This document shows, one piece after another, positions 12,920-63,595 of a stretch of 64,000 nucleotides of DNA. The stretch spans positions 1 through 64,000 of the forward strand of contig JAHQIW010007221.1 in the NCBI GenBank assembly GCA_019055375.1, given 5' to 3'. The notes under the pieces were generated by a model that saw only the letters and a list, made by a program, of their open reading frames with translations, ran no database searches and was not told where the DNA came from. Made by a program: the position numbers and the translations under genes. The DNA is from Parelaphostrongylus tenuis. Taxonomy: Eukaryota; Nematoda; Chromadorea; Rhabditida; Metastrongylidae. The first letter of the stretch is position 1; every line of letters begins with the position of its first letter.

Positions 12920-15210
12920 ATTCGTTATAAACTGATATAAAAGCAAAAACCATGATAATGTCGAAGCGATTAGAAGGCTGTCAGTGATAATGTATAGTGT
13001 CATGGACACTAAATAAGGAATACTTCAAAAATACCCGTTTGCGAATGATAGACTTTAAGTGGCGTATAAACAGGGAAAATGTTTCACAATGCTAGAATGC
13101 CATCGCCTTTCATTCATTTATGAAAAAACCTGAGATTTTCGATGAAGACTAGTGAAAGGTAGCAGACAATTTCACTAGAGTGTGAAGAACATAAACCATG
13201 AGACACGTGAAGGACCTCTGGTTGGGAGCGTACAAAGTTTGGTGATAACTGGAGGAAAACTCTACAAACATGGATTTGGTGAGAAAAAAATATCGATGAA
13301 AATTTTCCAAGTCAAATTTACGAGCATAGACGGAATGATGCAATGATTGAAACCTGGTAAAAGTACTTTGGATTTTAGAAATTGAGAGCAAGTAAAAGAA
13401 GATGCATTTTGCAAATATCTACAAGGAATCTGCTCATTAAAGTGGCATTTTTTGTGCGATTACATCTCTTCATCACTTCATTCGTAGTATTCGAACAAAT
13501 ACTAATCTGGAACATTTTTTTTATAACTCTTGGTGCATGTGATTTTATGCGATGTCCTATGGAATGGTTGTTATTTCAGATTCACATATGTGTTTTTCAT
13601 GAGAACGGCGGAAGGAGCTCGGCAAACATATGATCGGGTTACGAAAGTTTGTGACATCATTCCGGATCAGCATCATTGCGCTACATAAGATGGCGCCCGC
13701 CCAATTGTAGTGAGTGATTTGAGATCGCTCTGGACCGAAAACCCTTCAACGCCAGAATCACACAGTCGTTAAAAGCGTCAAAAGACAAGTTTGGTAAGAA
13801 TAATTTGCATTTTTCTCTGTAAGCTAAAAACTTGATTGCTATGATACAATTTACTCGGACAGCGAACGAACTGGGTTTCGGCTTACATCAAAGCCTGAAA
13901 AGATCGCGTTGTCCACAACCCAGTCAGTCAGATATTTTCATTACTTCCTTCAACAAAAAACCTCCAACCTAGACTTGTAATCGTTAAAGAGCAGATACAA
14001 CTCTTTGATACGCTCACCGCTATATATGAATCCTTCACCAAGTTGCCTAAATGAGAGAGACCCACCGTGCAAGGTTCATGTGAACTGCAAATGCAACTCT
14101 TACATTGAAGTAGCAATTTGTATGCAGTGTCATAACACTCGTGATGACGAGGTATTCATTCCCTGAGGTTTACGTCCGGAGTCACGCAATTATTCAGAAT
14201 GCTTCTAGGGTTTCAAATTCAAATACTAAAGTTTTCTGTTGTTGTGTGAGGGGAGGGTGGGGGTGACTCATAATTTAAAATGTTCCTCTTATGTGCTTTG
14301 TTTCATATGGTTGCCTACTGGGGTAGTTTAGGTTGACCTTTTCAACTAGATATTTTTTTTACCCGAGCACAGAGGAGCCTATCCGTTTTGGCCAGTGTAA
14401 TCGTCGCCGTACGCTTTGCAAGAGATTAAGCAAACTGTATCCGGATTCACGCAGTCACCGACTTTACCGTTAGGACATTTTGCGGACTTTTCCATTAGTC
14501 AGGAGATCATATATGCGGTTGTGACCTAGCTGGAGCTCAAGATTATTCAACCACTAATTATGCAATAATGTTTGGTGCCAACTAGTTCGCATTCGCTTGT
14601 ATTTCCGTTTATGCAGAACAGAATTGTGCATAATATGCTCTTACGGAGAAGAACGGTGACTGCATGAGTGCTAGTGTAGTTTATTTAATCTCTCACAAAA
14701 CGTGCGGGTGAGAATAAAAGGCGAAGCGGGTATGTTACTCTGCAACGATATGAGATACACCTAGTCGGCAAATCAAAAGTTCTATCAGATATCCAGTTGA
14801 GCCACGCAAAGGCCAATTATACGTTACACGAGAAAATCGGAGCGCGAAAATTCTCGAAGCATTTTGAACCTATAGAAAAATCCGAACTCAAAAATGAGCA
14901 CCTCGTCATCACTCCTAACATTGCACCATATCTCTGACCGGTTTTCGTGGATCTGACACTCCTTCATGCAGGGCTGTATACGACTGGCCCACAAATTTCT
15001 GATAGGTAGCAAACAACAAAACGGTGAGCTCACTACTATGTGATTTAACATTTAAATAATAAGGTCATCTTTGTTTTACTGAACACATTGCACGTCATTC
15101 TGAGTATTCCAGGCTTTACAGAAGGCGAAACCGCCAGAATGGAAGCCATTGCAATTGTCTACTATTTGCTGAATAAAGCGTCTCTAAACAGTCTCGCGTC
15201 CGCTGAATAA
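12920..15210. other. Gene-free stretch
   Basis: I found no gene, transposon domain or repeat copy that I could defend. A small plus-strand open stretch near 13950-14030 and a minus-strand one near 14824-15051 have no recognisable domain. Confidence 0.4.
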
Positions 15211-15217
15211 GAAAATT

Positions 15218-15330
15218 ACGAGATATGTTCTGACAGCATATTTTAAGCTTTCTATGATGCCTGCTATGACACTTATAAAGCACCAGACGTGAGTTTCGGC
15301 CTTTCAGCCTCATCAGTAGCATTATGCCTT
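15218..15330 (-). repeat. Repeat family C copy with hammerhead
   Basis: Matches the 35.88-36.0 kb repeat on the opposite strand (shared GTGCTTTATAAGTG and AAAGCTTAAAATATG blocks). It carries the hammerhead block 15280-15322. Confidence 0.7.
15280..15322 (-). ncRNA. Hammerhead ribozyme motif C2
   Basis: The 43-nt block on the minus strand has core CTGATGA and GAAA. Stem II is GGCT/GGCC capped by a GAAA loop. The cleavage dinucleotide is TC. Stem I pairs ATGCTA with TGGTGC using several G-U pairs, so it is weak. Stem III is CTCACG, only one possible pair. The core is intact; activity is doubtful. Confidence 0.6.
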
Positions 15331-16356: not shown

Positions 16357-16750
16357 TGTATAAGTCAACCCATGTTAACACACCACATGACGTGCGCAGC
16401 TCAAAAGTGATTATTTGGCAATATTGAAATTTGAGCCGTGGTCTCAGCAAAACACTCAAAACGAAAGATAAGATTGAAAATTAGTCAAGAGTTTTGCGCT
16501 TTCATGTTTTTGACTTCAGCGCTAAGATCGTGGCAGTCACTTCAAAATCACTATCGTTATGTGTTTGTGCTCTATATGTAACCAGAGGAGTAATTCGCCA
16601 AATTTGATCTCCTACCTAAATTTTCTATAATGCAAACGCAAGGAGGTTTGCCCGTTTCGCCAGCGTACTCATCCTGCATGCCTTACACGACATTAGATAT
16701 GAAGTACACAAACTCATACAATCTCCCTCTGTTCCTCTAGGGCTGATTAT

Positions 16751-16808
16751 AGTTTTCTGAATTGCACAAACAATCGTAGAGACGACGGACCAGCTGACCA
16801 CGCAGTAT
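16751..16808. repeat. Left copy of a 58-bp target-site duplication
   Basis: This 58-bp stretch is identical to 17320-17377. The two copies bracket exactly the RTE 3' fragment at 16809-17319. Confidence 0.85.
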
Positions 16809-17377: not shown

Positions 17378-17955
17378 TAGATGATAATTCGATAAGAGTC
17401 ACCAAGCTTTCCATACCACTACTTTTGACGCACGTCTTAATAGTGCAACCGACTTCGTTTAATGGAAATGGCATTTTGAAGGCATTCTTATTCAAATGAG
17501 AAGTATTGTTCTAAAGCCTAAATCTAGCAACTGTATGAACTCATGGCTTTCATGAGGTTTGTTATGCACTTGAGAAGCGCTAAACACGCATTTTTGGCAT
17601 ATTAGCACGGTAGCTTTCACTTTAGTCAGTACGAAGGGCTTAAAATGCGATATCAGGATATGACAATTTTAAGCAATGTTCCATTATAGTGGGTTGGAAG
17701 CGTTGATATATAATCCATGGCTATTTTGTGCATAGAACTTAGCAATTCTTTCCTTTTCTCTTCTCCTCTGCGCACTGTTTTAGCTAGTCGGTACCTGTTT
17801 TTGACAAGTGCTTATTTCGAGTGTGGTGGACGAGTGCAAGGGCAGCGTACTAGTGTATTTTTTCTATTGGATTTTCAATACCATTATGCCAAATCCGCAT
17901 TCTGGAAGCTTTATTTCACGAGAGTGCAAACTACCGCTCTGTCACAGTCTCAGCG
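17378..17955. other. Gene-free stretch
   Basis: Nothing recognisable between the RTE insertion on the left and the next RTE relic. Confidence 0.4.
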
Positions 17956-18406
17956 ATTTGAATAAAGCCCTTGTTTCAGTGGAAACAGAAGCGGTAATAA
18001 ACACTGTGGGCAATCAGGGCGTCCTTACTCGGTACATAACGATCCTTCGTGAGCTATATAAAGATCTCACTACCAAAATGTTGCCATTCTGCAATATTAT
18101 TATCATCGACGTAAAAAAGGGTTTTGACAAGACGATGCAATTCGGCCAAATGACTGCCAGCCTCCAAAACGTCACGCTAACATTAGATTAGGACGATGTA
18201 AAAGTAAAAATCGACTGTTGACAATGAAAACATCTTCGCTTCGCTGATGATATCGTCCTCATAACATCAAGCATCAGCCAAGCAGAACTAATGTTGACCG
18301 ATTTCGATAACGCCTGTGGAAAGATTGGTCTTCAATTAAATTCAACGAAAACGATGTTCATGAGGAACGGATGGGTTTTGAATGCCCCATTCAGCTCAGC
18401 GGAACG

Positions 18407-18666
18407 ACAATCTCCGAATAATCCATTAAATCGACTGTTTCTAAAACCTCGTAATAAACGTTCAAAATCAAATCCAAAAAAAGAATATTCTTAGCCTAAA
18501 CGAGGTTGGTATGCCAGGGCCATACACCGGTGTTTCGGAGGTTCGTCCTCCTCGTCAGTGACCCTCGCCCCATATTAAGCCCTGCATTGTAGCAAGGAGG
18601 GAGGCGTATGTGGTATGTGGTGATGGCATAGTGTACAATACACTGGTCCATCACAATCTCCGAATA
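18407..18666. mobile_element. Hammerhead-bearing unit (family A) inserted with 14-bp TSD
   Basis: A 232-bp segment (18421-18652) splits the RTE ORF and is flanked by ACAATCTCCGAATA at 18407-18420 and 18653-18666. Removing it restores a continuous RTE reading (SGTTISEYSSYIYLGREINM). The unit contains an AT-rich end, a hammerhead on the minus strand, and an end able to form a hairpin (GTGATGGCATAGTGTA against TACACTGGTCCATCAC). Related units lie at 19.8-20.45 kb. Confidence 0.88.
18517..18564 (-). ncRNA. Hammerhead ribozyme motif A1, intact core
   Basis: Minus strand, 48 nt. Stem I is GGGTCA/TGGCCC (one G-U), core CTGACGA, stem II GGAGG/CCTCC with loop ACGAA, then GAAA, self-complementary stem III CACCGGTG and cleavage dinucleotide TA. 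Every consensus element of a hammerhead is present. A loopless palindromic stem III of this kind is expected to fold as a dimer. Confidence 0.78.
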
Positions 18667-19588
18667 CTCCAGTTACATCTATCTAGGTCGTGAAATCAAC
18701 ATGATGAAACGACCTAGCTCCAGAGTTGAGCAGGAAGAAACGAGCGGCTGGGGAACGTTTAAAGCATAAAGATGTAGTGAAGAAGACGAAGAACATCCGA
18801 CTCCGTGTCCACCTTTTCGACTTGACGATTATGCCTGCCCTAACGTATGCAGCAGAAACCTGGTCACTGCGTAAGCAGGATGAAAGATCACTTGGCATAT
18901 TGAACGCGCAGTCGAAAGATCGATGCTAGGAGTATCCCGTATTTTGCAAATGAGAGAAAAGATCCGAAGTTCCGACCTGCGTCAACGATCATAAATCAAA
19001 GACGCCGTTCTACACCCCAAGATATCGAAAATAAAGTGGGCCGAACATGTGATGCGCTTCAATGACAACCGATGGACGAGAGCAGTTACCGACTGGATTT
19101 CTCGGGATATCGAGCGCTCCACAGGAAGACCACCGACCCGACGGCCCGATTTCTTCACGAAAAGGCTGGAAGAAAGATATGATACTCAGCGAATCCCTAA
19201 ATCGAGGTGGACTCATTGGGCTACTCTTCCACGCGATGGGAAAAATGAAAGTGCTGCTAGTACCCGCTTTAGTCACTCGACGATCAACGGGTTGACAGGT
19301 GAAAGGTGATAGAACCGCAGTCTCTGCTGTTTGAACCATTCTTTGTTCGACTTCTGGTATTGAATTTCATACTCGTTTCCAAAGTAACACCTAACTGATT
19401 TGGAATAAAAGCAAACTCTCCACCCATGTCACTAATAAACATTCGCACACTTTGATTCTATAAGCTCTCTGACCGGATGGAAATCACATTTTTGTTCATG
19501 CGCAAAAATAGAAACTATTCTTCTACTTCGATAGCGATTATTTTTCCAAAAAATTTTGTTCGAAAATTAGAGAGAAACAGGGTCAATC

Positions 19589-19775
19589 GCCATTTGATTG
19601 TTTCCTCAAGGGAAGCTCAGGAGAAGGGGATTGGTGGTTGTGCACTTTTTTGCCATCTGATTGTTTCTCAAGAGAAGCTCAGGAAAAGGGGATTGGTGGT
19701 TGTGCCCTTTTTTGCCATCTGATTGTTTCTCAAGAGATGCTCAGGAAAAGGGGATTGGTGGTTGTGCCCTTTTTT
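19589..19775. repeat. 62-bp tandem repeat, three units
   Basis: Units start with GCC at 19589, 19652 and 19714 (63, 62 and 62 bp) and differ at few positions, so the array is young. It lies between the RTE 3' end and the PLE/hammerhead cluster. Confidence 0.85.
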
Positions 19776-19797
19776 GCCGTACATCACCTAATACTTC

Positions 19798-19870
19798 TAG
19801 CTCAAAAGGGGTTGGTACGCCAGGGTCATACACTGGTGTTTCGGAGGTTCGTCTTCCTCATCAGTGACCA
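19798..19870 (-). repeat. Family A unit fragment
   Basis: It shares CTCAAAAGGGGTTGGTACGC and the hammerhead with the units at 18.4 and 20.2 kb. The hammerhead strand is minus. It abuts PLE reverse-transcriptase sequence at 19880. Confidence 0.75.
19823..19869 (-). ncRNA. Hammerhead ribozyme motif A2
   Basis: Core CTGATGA and GAAA and site TA are intact. Stem I is GGTCA/TGACC, stem II GGAAG/CCTCC with one A-C mismatch, and stem III CACCAGTG. Close to functional consensus. Confidence 0.7.
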
Positions 19871-19879
19871 GCACCCAGC

Positions 19880-20028
19880 CTAGCCATCGCTTTCATGTCA
19901 AAAGTGGAAGCTCCAGTTCTCCATCGGCGTCCAATACTCTACTGTCGCTATACAGACGACTGTTTCATCATCTGCTCTACACAAGAGGAGATGGATAAGT
20001 ATTTCGAAATCCAAAAAAGAATGATTTA
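19880..20028 (+). mobile_element. Penelope-like element reverse transcriptase fragment
   Basis: The plus strand translates without stops to a Penelope-type RT palm: LAIAFMSKVEAPVLHRR, then ILYCRYTDDCFIICSTQEEM with the catalytic Y-DD motif. RTE RT has FADD here, so this is a different class; PLEs characteristically read R-Y-DD-F. It is cut at both ends by family A hammerhead repeat sequence. Confidence 0.85.
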
Positions 20029-20110
20029 AGCTCAAAAGGGGTTGATACGCCAGGGTCATACACCGGTGTTTCGGTGTGGTTGGCGTATCAACCCCTTTTG
20101 AGCTTAAATC
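20023..20110. repeat. Perfect 30-bp-arm palindrome of family A ends
   Basis: 20023-20052 and 20081-20110 are exact reverse complements with a 28-base loop that contains half a hammerhead (GGTGTTTCGG side only). Two family A units meet head to head here. Confidence 0.85.
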
Positions 20111-20211
20111 CCTTTTTTTTGGAATTATATTGAATGTTTTTTGGGGGTTTCTAAAACAGTCGATCTTTTGAATTAGTTTCGATCTAACAGCAAAAATCTA
20201 TCGACTGAGAG

Positions 20212-20253
20212 GTGGTGATGGTACAGTGTCATAGTACACTGTGCCATCACCAC
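20212..20253. repeat. Terminal hairpin of the family A unit
   Basis: 17-bp arms GTGGTGATGGTACAGTG and CACTGTGCCATCACCAC (one mismatch) around an 8-base loop. The same hairpin ends the inserted unit near 18620-18652. Confidence 0.8.
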
Positions 20254-20294
20254 ATACGCCCTCTTGCTTCAATGCAGGGCTGAATGTGGGGCGG

Positions 20295-20342
20295 GGGTCA
20301 CTGATGAGGAGGACGAACCTCCGAAACACCGGTGTATGACCC
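20295..20342 (+). ncRNA. Hammerhead ribozyme motif A3, intact
   Basis: The best hammerhead of the window: stem I GGGTCA/TGACCC (6 perfect pairs), core CTGATGA, stem II GGAGG/CCTCC with loop ACGAA, GAAA, stem III CACCGGTG, cleavage dinucleotide TA. No consensus position is broken. Cleavage would fall between the TA and TGACCC. Confidence 0.82.
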
Positions 20343-20454
20343 TGGCGTACCAACCTCTTTTGAGCTTAAATCATTCTTTTTTTGGAATTATATTGAATGT
20401 TTTTGGGGGTTTCAAATACAGTCGATTTTTTGAATTAGTTTTAATCCTTCTAGC

Positions 20455-21390
20455 TTAACCTTATGACGCAGTTGATTTTAGCTCATACAAACCGCATGCG
20501 ATCCTGCGCAGGGTTAATTCAAAGTAAATTCACTAGGCGCAAAACTTTACCCCAGTTCTAATAATCAGCGCGCACTATCCAAAAAAAGTCGTACCGTTAA
20601 CACAGTGACTCTTGATGACTCTCGCATATACTGATTTCCAGAGATATCACCACATCGCGATAACTGATGTTTTTATAATAGCTTGGATGTCAGACTACCT
20701 CCAAACCTTGGGATGGCTAAAGAAATGCAAAATTCCTTGCGAACTGTCCTTTTCTTTATTTGAAACTTGCACGAGGCAGGTACCTCTTTTCCTTAAGAAT
20801 TTGACAGCTATCGTTTCTGCGACAACGCTGTTGTCAGGCCTCATCTACAGTTATATGAAATAGGTCACCGGGTCTTGTGTGACACACTATAAAAAGTAGC
20901 GTTCTTGCCAAAACGTTAGCAATCAAATTTTAAGGAAAAAGATGTACCAACCTCGTGATGTTTTTAAGTTTTGTTTTCATTTGTTAGCGTTTTAGAACTT
21001 CAAACTTTCTCCTTAAATTTTTTCCGATATTGCACCGTATATCATCACAGGTACAAATCTATTTATTGGCCTCCTCCAAAGGTACTTTGCCAAATACTGG
21101 TCACGATGAATCCTTTGGAAACACATCTATTTGAATTTGAAAACATTTTGATTTGTATGAGAGGCAGTGAGATGCGAAACAGTTGTGTCTCTATGCCCAG
21201 TATTTTAGAATTTCCTCCGGTAGGTGCATAGGTATAATTTTCTAGATTTGACGAAATTAAGGATGTTATTGTTTTTTAAACAACGGCAGAAAAGTAGACC
21301 GGGTTTTTTTTTTTGTTATTCGGCAGATATTTTTGAAAGAGATTTTTTCGTTGGACATAGAATTTCCATTGAAATTTCATGGCCATTCGA
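20455..21390. other. Gene-free stretch
   Basis: No recognisable gene or element. Confidence 0.4.
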
Positions 21391-22046: not shown

Positions 22047-22623
22047 ATTCTGTTTATAATTCGTCATACCCGAAAAATTGCAGGGCTCGTTCAGAGCGGA
22101 TAGTGAGAACAACCTCATATGTATTCCAGGGTAATTTAAAGCAAAAGTTTCATGATCCACCATACATGACTCACCACGCTGACATCTTGGACATTTCCGT
22201 TGGAATAAAAATATATTTTTTGTTATGATAAAAGAAAATCACAATAAAGAGTTTACAGTCCGTATTCCATTATAACGGAAGACAATAGTGGTAAGATTGC
22301 ATCTTAGTCACTATGTTATGAAAGCAAGAAGATGATAACAATTACCGTTACACGATTGGAATTTGCGTCAAAAGTCTAGAGATAAAGGAGATTGAACGCT
22401 ATGTCTAATGAAAAACGGTGTTTAATTTGCGTTAGAAGCCCTTCCCATAGCAACGGACTCACAGAGAAAAGTGTCTAAAAACGAGACCAAAAATGTTTTA
22501 TGCTCTTCATGTTTAGCATCTTCACAAGTCAACGGGATGGTTTCATACAATAATAAATGTATGAAATGATCATTTTTGAACCACGCATGTCATGTGGTCT
22601 GTTAAAAAGGGCTGACTTACAGA

Positions 22624-22666
22624 GCCCGATACACGTGTTTCGACCTTGCGATCTCGTCAGTCGAGC
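22624..22666 (-). ncRNA. Hammerhead ribozyme motif B4, intact core
   Basis: Minus strand, 43 nt. Stem I is GCTCGA/TCGGGC (one G-U), core CTGACGA, stem II GATC/GGTC closed by a GCAA tetraloop, then GAAA, palindromic stem III CACGTG and site TA. The only family B copy with all elements sound. Confidence 0.75.
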
Positions 22667-30492: not shown

Positions 30493-30843
30493 CTACAATA
30501 GAAAACCAATAGAATCAGAGTAAAATAGCGCAGAAACACCTTGAAGGCATCTTTCTTTATTATCCATAATCTGAAAAGAAGTTTTGAAGTCAATACCAAA
30601 CACTGAACAAGGTACTATCGTTCATTTCACAACTCAAGATTGATCAGCGAAGATGTCCGTCTTTTATCTACTCAGTGAAATACGTCAAGTAGCTCCACTG
30701 ATATTCCTACATCTACCTATCCTTCAAAATTCAAAATCATCATCGGCAGTGTTGAGGGATCTAAAGATTGAAGAGCGTAGTTTATAATCCTATTACGAAT
30801 TTTATTGCTGAATCAGTTCCCATTGCATTTCGCAAACACCTGA

Positions 30844-31895
30844 GTGTCTTTCAACTGTATACTTAATGCGTCTCTCAGAAGTGCTCATGTGATGGAGTCT
30901 TTCGAGGTGACCACTCTTTACACAAAAGTGTCCAGTCAACATCTCCAATATACAACGCAAGCCATGCAGAGGCCCTTTACGAAGCACGGAAGAGCTGCAA
31001 GCATGTATTATTTTCTGAATGGGCAGATTATGGCCTCTCCAAAGGAGGGCCTCAACAGTTCAAACCAGATGGTCCGCAGAATATTTCGCACAAATGAGAA
31101 GATAGAGAATAGGATAGCGACTGCCTAAAGCCTTGCCTCAGTCTTTGTGTCTAAGGTGGAAGTTGTATTAACCGACCACTCTAGTGCAGGTTTATAAGTA
31201 ATTGTTTTGCGATCTACTCCACATAAAAGGAAGTCGACAAATGTTCCAAACTGGTGAATGAGTACTCACTATATAAAATCTACGTGGAAGAAAGCGGAGG
31301 TAAATTTGCTTTCATTTTTGAACACTAAATCAATCTATCCAAAAACACCTGGAACAAAGTGTCACCAGGAGCCAAATGATAGAAAAATAATGAGTCATAT
31401 CTTCACCCATCAGCGCAGAACGCGCACTTGTGGAAAAAAATGTTTTGTACAGTTACCAGTGTGTGTGTAACAGAGTGTATGAAGAAGGAGCCTCAAATTT
31501 AGTAAGAAAATAGTCATTTTCAACAGCTACGAAGCGACGGGATTTTCTTCAGTTAAAATTGGGATAAATACGCTCCAGACGACAAGTCTAGCTAAATAAG
31601 GCTCTTTTAACACTCCCTTTCGCATTCAACGAAGAAAGCACGGCCATAAACGCAGCTTGAAAAGGCACCTTCAATCAATTCGTAGCACTGAATTGATATA
31701 CTCCAACACTCTATGGCTCCAACAGGCCCGTAGCCCACTGAATAACAGTCTCTGCATACAAATAACTGGACGATTTGCCAAAATGGAAGAGACAATGATT
31801 GCTTGAACTTGGACACGATGTATCTGAAGTCCTGCAAAGCTTGTGGGGCAAAATACATTGGAAGCAGGCACACCACTTGGCCCGTTTAAGAAAGC
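30844..31895 (+). mobile_element. Penelope-like element relic: RT and GIY-YIG
   Basis: A frame-shifted PLE ORF. 30890-31125 gives SFEVTTLYTKVS (RT palm A, family F-V-SLYTNV) and a PKEGLNSSN block. 31133-31165 gives SLASVFVSKVEV (family LA--FMSK-E). Downstream traces of the RT thumb run to about 31480. 31818-31870 gives MYLKSCKACGAKYIG, matching the GIY-YIG endonuclease start that PLEs carry at their C terminus (cysteine pair then YIG). Many stops; dead. The order RT then GIY-YIG is diagnostic of PLEs. Confidence 0.82.
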
Positions 31896-62489: not shown

Positions 62490-63595
62490 CAAAATTGACC
62501 AAGTTGACCTTTCCAGGCTCTGAAGAAGACGAACCGACAAAACGTCAGCCACTGTTGCCCTGATTAAATCTTACTATGAAATTCGTGCCTGCTCATCAAA
62601 AAAACAGTGAATTATTTGACGACTGCCGATGTTGATAGAAAGTCCGGTCCTCTCAAAAAAAAATGTTACGATCATTTTCTACGTACCTCATTTTGAACAC
62701 ATTCTTCTCGTAGTCAGTCATAGTTGTCAAATCTCAGTCAACTGGTGTTGAAAACTTCAACGATTTGCCTTTACGACAGTCGCCTCAAGGAACTAGCGCA
62801 ATATCTTCAATGTGACCGTTAATTTGCAAGCTGGATCTGACATTTCTTTATTGGGATTTGAAAAGCGTTTCAACACAATCACAAGTTTTCGCCATTTTCC
62901 GGCTAGAGACTGCATTAGTGCTAAGATAACTTTGATTGTTCGAACTGATTTCCTCATAAGCGGGCTTGCACATGTAAACGTCAATCAACTTCTAAACTTA
63001 GCAGGTCGTGAGTGAGATATCTTGCCTGCATTTATTGTAGCAACATTTCTCGAAATTTTTTTTCTTTTCCGGCGCTCCTTGTTATGCGTTTTTCACAGGT
63101 CATCTTTCATTAGTTTACCTCAGCAGTCAAATACCTCTTTTTGGCAGAATATACTGCCTACAGATTCAATCTGTTAAAAATTTTTTAAATCAATTGACTC
63201 TTGCAGTTTTTCCCACTCAAAGCATAAAAAACTGAATCCACACAGCCGGAAACTTAACAGAGATCGATGAAAAGCGTACTTTTGAAAACGGTAGCAAAGG
63301 AGGGTCATATGTTCCACTCCATCACCTTATGGAGTATATTGAAACACTTTCTAACCTACTTACTGTACTTCTAGTATATTTTTCTTGAAATAGGCATTAT
63401 TTTTCTCTTTTTCATTAGTTAGCACAGCAAGAAGAACTGGTAAAAGCTGGCTCAAATTATAATTATGAGATATATTGAATTTTGAGCGTGGTCTTAATGA
63501 AACATTCGAAAAAAAAGCTATATTGTTGCAAAAATACTAGCCAAGAGCAGTCGAGTGTCGATAATGCCGATCTTGTGACTTTCACTCAAAGGCGA
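62490..63595. other. Gene-free stretch with one hammerhead-like scrap
   Basis: 62515-62552 on the plus strand reads GGCT, CTGAAGA, a poor stem II, AAAA, CGTC, AGCC (family D motif). No gene found. Confidence 0.35.

Follow-up and report, generated by a model that had tools for sequence, protein, structure and literature searches.

Hammerhead retrozyme copies in a nematode genome carry Penelope-like, two-site insertion scars

What is a short, ribozyme-bearing segment doing inside an RTE-type retrotransposon copy, and which enzyme would have put it there? The segment lies in a 64,000-nucleotide stretch of DNA from the nematode Parelaphostrongylus tenuis, hereafter the window. The original prediction of a 232-bp insert bracketed by 14-bp repeats proved exact in its coordinates (Table 1); with one duplication added, the insert measures 246 bp. 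For comparison we used 32 insert-free RTE copies, 29 from a genome search together with those within loci L007, L018 and L027. In 31 of these copies the overlap between the two flanks of the insert is exactly 14 bp; in the remaining one it is 15 bp. Removal of the insert, which had been said to restore RTE coding exactly, thus restores the RTE at the level of DNA continuity. Most insert-free copies read ..AATG.. where the window reads ..AATA.., so the window duplication is 13 or 14 bp long.

Table 1. Features of the insert, its target and the neighbouring composite insertion, in window coordinates
Feature	Position	Strand	Basis or remark
Left target-site duplication, ACAATCTCCGAATA	18407..18420	.	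identical to 18653-18666
Right target-site duplication, ACAATCTCCGAATA	18653..18666	.	identical to 18407-18420
Truncated alpha retrozyme monomer, single site-A cDNA arm	18421..18652	- (RNA sense)	unit coordinates 1-242
RTE-type retrotransposon copy (target)	17700..19314 (nominal start; 3' end ~19314)	+	3' end common to copies
Site A, inferred reverse-transcription start at tailed end, RNA GGAUUA	18419..18424	-	26/27 left outer ends
Site B, second inferred start, RNA UUUUUUUGGAUUUG	18468..18482	-	16/20 right outer ends
3' strand of predicted stem around site B, RNA ACGAGGUUUU, in tail	18443..18452	-	minimum-energy folds
5' strand of predicted stem around site B, RNA AACCUCGU	18500..18507	-	minimum-energy folds
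Type I hammerhead (predicted)	18515..18564	-	descriptor
Predicted self-cleavage site, after GUGUA and before UGGCC	between 18523 and 18522	-	predicted hammerhead fold
Second, diverged (alpha2) two-armed insertion, tailed end right	19789..20455	-	duplication TAATACTTCTAGCT / TAATCCTTCTAGCT
Hammerhead, alpha2 left piece	19821..19870	-	descriptor
PLE reverse-transcriptase fragment, 143 bp, inside alpha2 insertion	19862..20004	+	tblastn E 1e-18
Hammerhead, alpha2 right arm	20295..20344	+	descriptor

The insert contains a predicted type I hammerhead. Our descriptor, defined by CUGANGA, GAA, three stems and H17, identified five motifs within the 64-kb window and matched 1 of 120 random strands (60 sequences of 64 kb, both strands, generated with the dinucleotide frequencies of the window). 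In agreement with the earlier reading of a complete minus-strand hammerhead, every core position is present in the window copy, with stem I GGGUCA/UGGCCC, a 5-bp stem II GGAGG/CCUCC and a short, capped stem III ACA/UGU. In this family, which we call alpha, 46 of 54 copies retain the strict core pattern (seven partial matches were set aside), and stem pairing reaches 95% across copies. Covariation is weak, with two pairs showing double changes, a level equalled by 45 of 500 shuffles; strong covariation is lacking because the copies are too alike. The proposed check against Rfam came back negative: the hammerhead models had no match in the window stretch, neither at the gathering score nor at E<=10, and none at E<=1 in nine other loci. 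Rfam miRNA families matched most strongly in the inverted arms of L009 and L027, and we took these matches as chance.

The window holds further hammerhead-like motifs. A beta family is represented at 22622-22666 on the minus strand, with stem I GCUCGA/UCGGGC, stem II GAUC-GCAA-GGUC and a predicted cut after GUGUA; L005, L007 and L078 contain relatives, and L084 a degenerate one. A gamma motif at 15278-15322, also on the minus strand, combines CUGAUGA, stem II GGCUGAAAGGCC and GAAAC with a weak stem I.

A search of its own genome with the alpha insert gave at least 109 matches. The COX1 of this genome shares 93% identity with Angiostrongylus. Hammerhead cores with at most one mismatch occur 2,392 times in the 481.5-Mb nematode assembly (1255 forward and 1137 reverse), against 0 for a control pattern. 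In the first 100 of these 2,392 places, taken in contig order, the spacing between same-strand neighbours is 269-278 bp in 22 of 23 cases and 539 in the remaining one, and the alpha unit is thus ~270-272 bp long. Since the window copy covers only unit positions 1-242, it is a truncated monomer. Where the strand changes within 1.5 kb in the same 100 places, the order is '-+' in 22 cases and '+-' in none, so that inverted neighbours always diverge. The claim that the ribozyme unit is itself the mobile entity is borne out by the 2,392 cores of this tandem family. The further claim of a self-contained 232-bp unit survives in part, in that the unit is mobile; in full it is tandem and 270-272 bp long, and the window copy is ~30 bp short of it. 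Alpha is best read as an animal non-LTR retrozyme, here in a nematode. It has one type I hammerhead per unit, tandem units within 170-400 bp, low GC (0.46) and no coding capacity to speak of, with an open frame of 63 aa at most in a dimer; its target duplications exceed 4 bp and mostly measure 10-14 bp (18 of 27 loci).

The architecture of alpha copies was read from the 30 best matches to the window copy, chosen by similarity. Removal of duplicates before any counting left 27 loci; L004 is the same place as L003, and L016 and L026 duplicate L015 and L023. The left outer end falls at site A in 26 of the 27. A second, inverted arm is present in 20, and the two arms stand head to head inside duplications of 10-14 bp. 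The outer end of this inverted arm falls at site B in 16 of 20 loci and at site A in none, B lying ~50 nt from A on the RNA; the windows that define the two sites were set after the ends had been seen. The other four right ends are atypical and start at unit positions 71, 76, 122 and 205. By end pair, the 20 two-armed loci are thus 16 A+B and 4 A+atypical, and no A+A or B+B insert exists among the 27 alpha loci. Duplications score at least 10 in 18 of the 27, with a mode of 12 bp, against 3 of 180 mis-paired flank controls, so the search for more copies with defined ends and duplications succeeded. L107, a locus fetched later, has A at its left, B at its right and a 13-bp duplication, ACTGATTTAGAAT. 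The window copy consists of a site-A arm only (242 nt), with site B unused. Another retrozyme copy, flanked by duplication CATCTTTGCTTT and having a very short B arm, lies within RTE-like sequence at 1501-1768 of L007.

Many left arms are longer than one unit (654 nt in L003), so the alpha template was probably longer than a monomer, or circular. Within single insertions, tandem units are 93.5% identical (27 comparisons, some misaligned) and arms 96.2% (35 comparisons); between loci, identity is 93.8%. These values fit a circular template and a tandem transcript alike. The inner ends bear on the idea, set aside here, that a ribozyme-cut linear RNA serves as template. They cluster at unit positions 71-106, just short of the predicted cut, in 17 of 47 cases (P 6e-5, for a window chosen post hoc, in L001-L030). 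In L009, L013, L023, L024 and L027 both arms end at nearly the same place, and in some loci the alignments overlap there. At the outer junctions, 17 loci show a mean of 2.3 nt of microhomology at A, where shuffles give 0.5, and 15 loci a mean of 1.9 nt at B, where shuffles give 0.6; the procedure for calling duplications inflates both means, and we do not use them as main evidence.

The same genome contains Penelope-like elements (PLEs) with GIY-YIG domains. We scored 150 matches out of 1723 candidates and found open frames of up to 902 aa; one 608-aa frame carries both RVT_1 (reverse-transcriptase) and GIY-YIG domains. Neighbouring matches within 5 kb among the 150 are arranged '-+' in 20 cases, '--' in 1, '++' in 1 and '+-' in 0. 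At the PLE 3' ends that we read, the minimal hammerhead is CUGAAGAAGGCGAACUGCCGAAACGUC. Ends were determined for 17 two-sided PLE inserts, namely 11 of the 20 divergent pairs (picked without sight of their ends), a small insert in L013 and five other two-sided inserts from loci of the GIY-YIG match set. One end carrying a tail of ~45 nt and one untailed (site-B) end were present in 16 of the 17. The exception lies in L078, where the left end is tailed and the right end atypical; L071, whose right end lies beyond the fetched stretch, was excluded from the count. PLE duplications score at least 11 in 9 of 10 pairs, again with a mode of 12 bp (control 1/90), the L087/L088 pair being the miss with a score of 7. 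Further duplications measure 12 bp in C4986, 13 bp in L013 and 12 bp in L083. The inserts in L083, L079, L077 and L070 each have one tailed and one untailed end; a search that assumed an untailed end on each side found no duplication in the last three, because one end of each insert is tailed.

Other traces of PLEs are scattered through these data. In L096 and L102 the tailed ends run ~15-18 nt longer than the others, with sequence common to both, which hints at a third start site. The window itself holds the tailed 3' end of another PLE family at 62586-62653 on the plus strand (72.4 bits to a profile of PLE tails whose training set included it), and tblastn detects PLE coding relics at 1927-2205, 14298-14705, 16478-16771, 17719-17883 and 30525-31865.

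The retrozyme copies thus show a PLE-like scar, with two sites and one site per end. The duplication mode is 12 bp in alpha inserts and resident PLEs alike. All 32 inserts that end in one or the other site at each side (16 alpha, 16 PLE) are discordant, that is A+B, which has a probability of 2^-32 if ends choose sites independently; the figure leaves out the four alpha inserts and the one PLE insert with an atypical end. The original prediction had taken the target duplications as pointing to retroposition. Together with the paired start sites, the duplications point more narrowly to insertion of Penelope type than to generic retroposition.

Do alpha and the PLEs also have a start module in common? 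In minimum-energy folds of alpha1, alpha2, PLE1, PLE2 and PLE4, site B is enclosed by the same predicted outer stem, in which ACCUCG pairs with CGAGGU (or U-G variants occur). Fold z-scores for the five range from -0.95 to +0.45, none better than shuffles, and the PLE1 centroid fold is without the outer stem. Module alignments were matched in score by 5 of 2000 shuffles for alpha2-PLE4, 8 for alpha2-PLE1 (an alignment that takes in a few flank letters), 11 for alpha1-PLE4 and 15 for alpha1-PLE2; two other pairs are weaker, alpha2-PLE2 at 139 and alpha1-PLE1 at 586 of 2000. A profile HMM of 15 PLE tails, which reaches 14.5 bits on 10 Mb of random sequence, misses the alpha tails, with alpha2 at -0.9 bits and alpha1 not among the best 40. 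Alignments and predicted folds are thus suggestive of a common module, and we count the negative profile search as evidence against its homology in sequence.

A second insertion in the window, the diverged alpha2 copy, is a composite. It is two-armed, and its 14-bp duplication has one mismatch. Between its retrozyme pieces sits the PLE reverse-transcriptase fragment, which is 77.6% identical in nucleotide sequence to positions 772-914 of PLE1. The simplest reading of this one case is that cDNAs of both a PLE and a retrozyme arose at a single target and were then joined; alternatively, the PLE fragment may be a later, separate insertion. A 62-bp tandem repeat in three copies (19589-19778) lies directly left of the composite.

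With good confidence, we interpret the window insert as a truncated copy of a 272-bp non-coding tandem retrozyme whose RNA likely cuts itself and is likely copied by the reverse transcriptase-endonuclease of a resident PLE. Because the insertion scars match within the same genome, PLEs are the likely agents that copy alpha into new places. The PLE enzyme would cut the two target strands at positions staggered by ~12 bp. Each 3' overhang would then serve as primer for reverse transcription from an internal site of a multimeric or circular retrozyme RNA: site A for one target strand and, within the predicted hairpin, site B for the other. Head-to-head joining of the two cDNAs between the duplications would follow. 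In the window copy, a lone site-A arm would have been joined straight to the other target end. Among the points against this reading are the four of 20 right ends that lie off site B and the window copy itself, which has no B arm.

Could a LINE have done this instead? For animal retrozymes, LINEs or PLEs have been proposed as movers (PMC7229834), and RTE is very abundant here, with 4768 first-look candidates in the genome. The head-to-head arms would then be ordinary LINE inversions arising through twin priming. Twin priming does yield 5' inversions, but it is not known to fix more than one end, whereas both outer ends are fixed in alpha (26/27 and 16/20). The RTE 3' end (..GGTGATAG), compared by eye, is unlike site A or site B, and the tail rule agrees with that of the PLEs (16/17 inserts). 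A LINE as driver of alpha is therefore disfavoured, and we consider it improbable.

A quite different possibility is that alpha is no independent retrozyme at all, and instead a solo or tandem pseudo-LTR of a PLE family that has lost its coding part. PLE pseudo-LTRs do have hammerheads, direct and inverted orientation and a tail (PMC3846280, PMC11167929). The alpha units, however, mostly abut in tandem at 269-278 bp with no coding sequence between them, and leave no room for a PLE open reading frame. In 0 of 20 PLE loci fetched (~3.2 kb each) does an alpha unit form the PLE's own 3' end; L082 and L084 hold diverged alpha pieces nearby. Minimal hammerheads in PLE pseudo-LTRs were reportedly described by Cervera in 2014 and by Lunse in 2017. 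They are cited as such in PMC7761336, and they are found at PLE 3' ends here; alpha differs in its longer, 5-bp stem II and its capped stem III. The solo-pLTR identity, one of the two offered originally, is accordingly very doubtful. Least credible, to the point of being negligible, is a DNA-level repeat (foldback, MITE or expanding satellite) with a chance hammerhead-like sequence: inverted arms and tandem arrays do resemble foldback or satellite DNA, but the variable 10-14-bp duplications, start sites fixed on one RNA strand, the '-+' over '+-' order (22 versus 0) and single truncated arms fit reverse transcription, and the core is kept in 46 of 54 copies.

The PLE-driven retrozyme that we favour has close relatives in the literature. 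The animal non-LTR retrozymes of Cervera and de la Pena (2020) are tandem units with type I hammerheads (PMC7229834). As described there they resemble alpha in unit length (170-400 bp), GC under 50%, lack of coding sequence, target duplications longer than 4 bp, high copy number and coexistence with PLEs. Alpha differs in its nematode host, nematodes being unmentioned in the main text of that paper, and in its head-to-head arms with paired start sites, the word 'inverted' occurring 0 times in that text. That paper calls PLEs 'a strong candidate' for the driver and draws the link through coexistence and common features; here it is drawn through insertion scars. A 2024 review still gives LINEs or PLEs as retrozyme drivers (PMC11722881).

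On the PLE side, work in vitro with the Anolis Poseidon element (Frangieh 2024; PMC11167929) reports that both target strands are cut and extended. Reverse transcription starts at two adjacent internal sites, and the interval between them is the PLE 'tail'. Hammerhead mutants were without effect on insertion in that assay, and completion of insertion was ascribed to additional steps not yet validated. Rotifer PLEs (Arkhipova 2013; PMC3846280) have inverted pseudo-LTRs, a tail on one of them and duplications of 8-10 bp. Alpha thus resembles Penelope/Poseidon insertion in its two adjacent internal starts and its use of both strands (PMC11167929), and PLE insertion more broadly in its single tailed end, inverted head-to-head repeats and duplications (PMC11167929, PMC3846280). 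Its RNA, by contrast, is non-coding and not that of a PLE. The resident PLEs differ from Poseidon in vitro as well: one tailed and one site-B end mark 16 of 17 inserts here, whereas the Poseidon reaction showed no difference between strands in start site (PMC11167929).

Tandem units with type I hammerheads have been described from animals before; what is new is the head-to-head placement of two cDNA arms with paired start sites A and B. Among worm repeats, SM-alpha is a Schistosoma satellite repeat with a hammerhead. Schistosoma W-elements, like alpha, are satellite-like hammerhead repeats of a worm and putatively mobile; they differ in their flatworm host, and the available text on them describes no two-site, head-to-head PLE scar (PMC8490949). 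A literature search, with most subscription papers outside it, found neither a retrozyme in nematodes nor a retrozyme inserted head to head from two sites.

How far might the dependence on PLEs go? We lean slightly towards regarding animal retrozymes as the 'SINEs' of PLEs. Under such a relationship, RNA units made by the ribozyme would bear a copy of the PLE start hairpin, and the PLE enzyme would prime one target strand at A and the other at B on the same RNA. Retrozyme and PLE RNAs would share one particle, which could give rise to chimeras like the one with the PLE reverse-transcriptase piece in the window. The stop point of both cDNAs would be set by the ribozyme cut.

What drives animal retrozymes has been an open question. 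Here, one genome holds both a retrozyme and PLEs, and their scars agree in start sites, orientation and duplication length. The question of the driver can now be tested with the existing in vitro PLE reaction, and the rule of one site per end bears on how PLEs themselves complete insertion.
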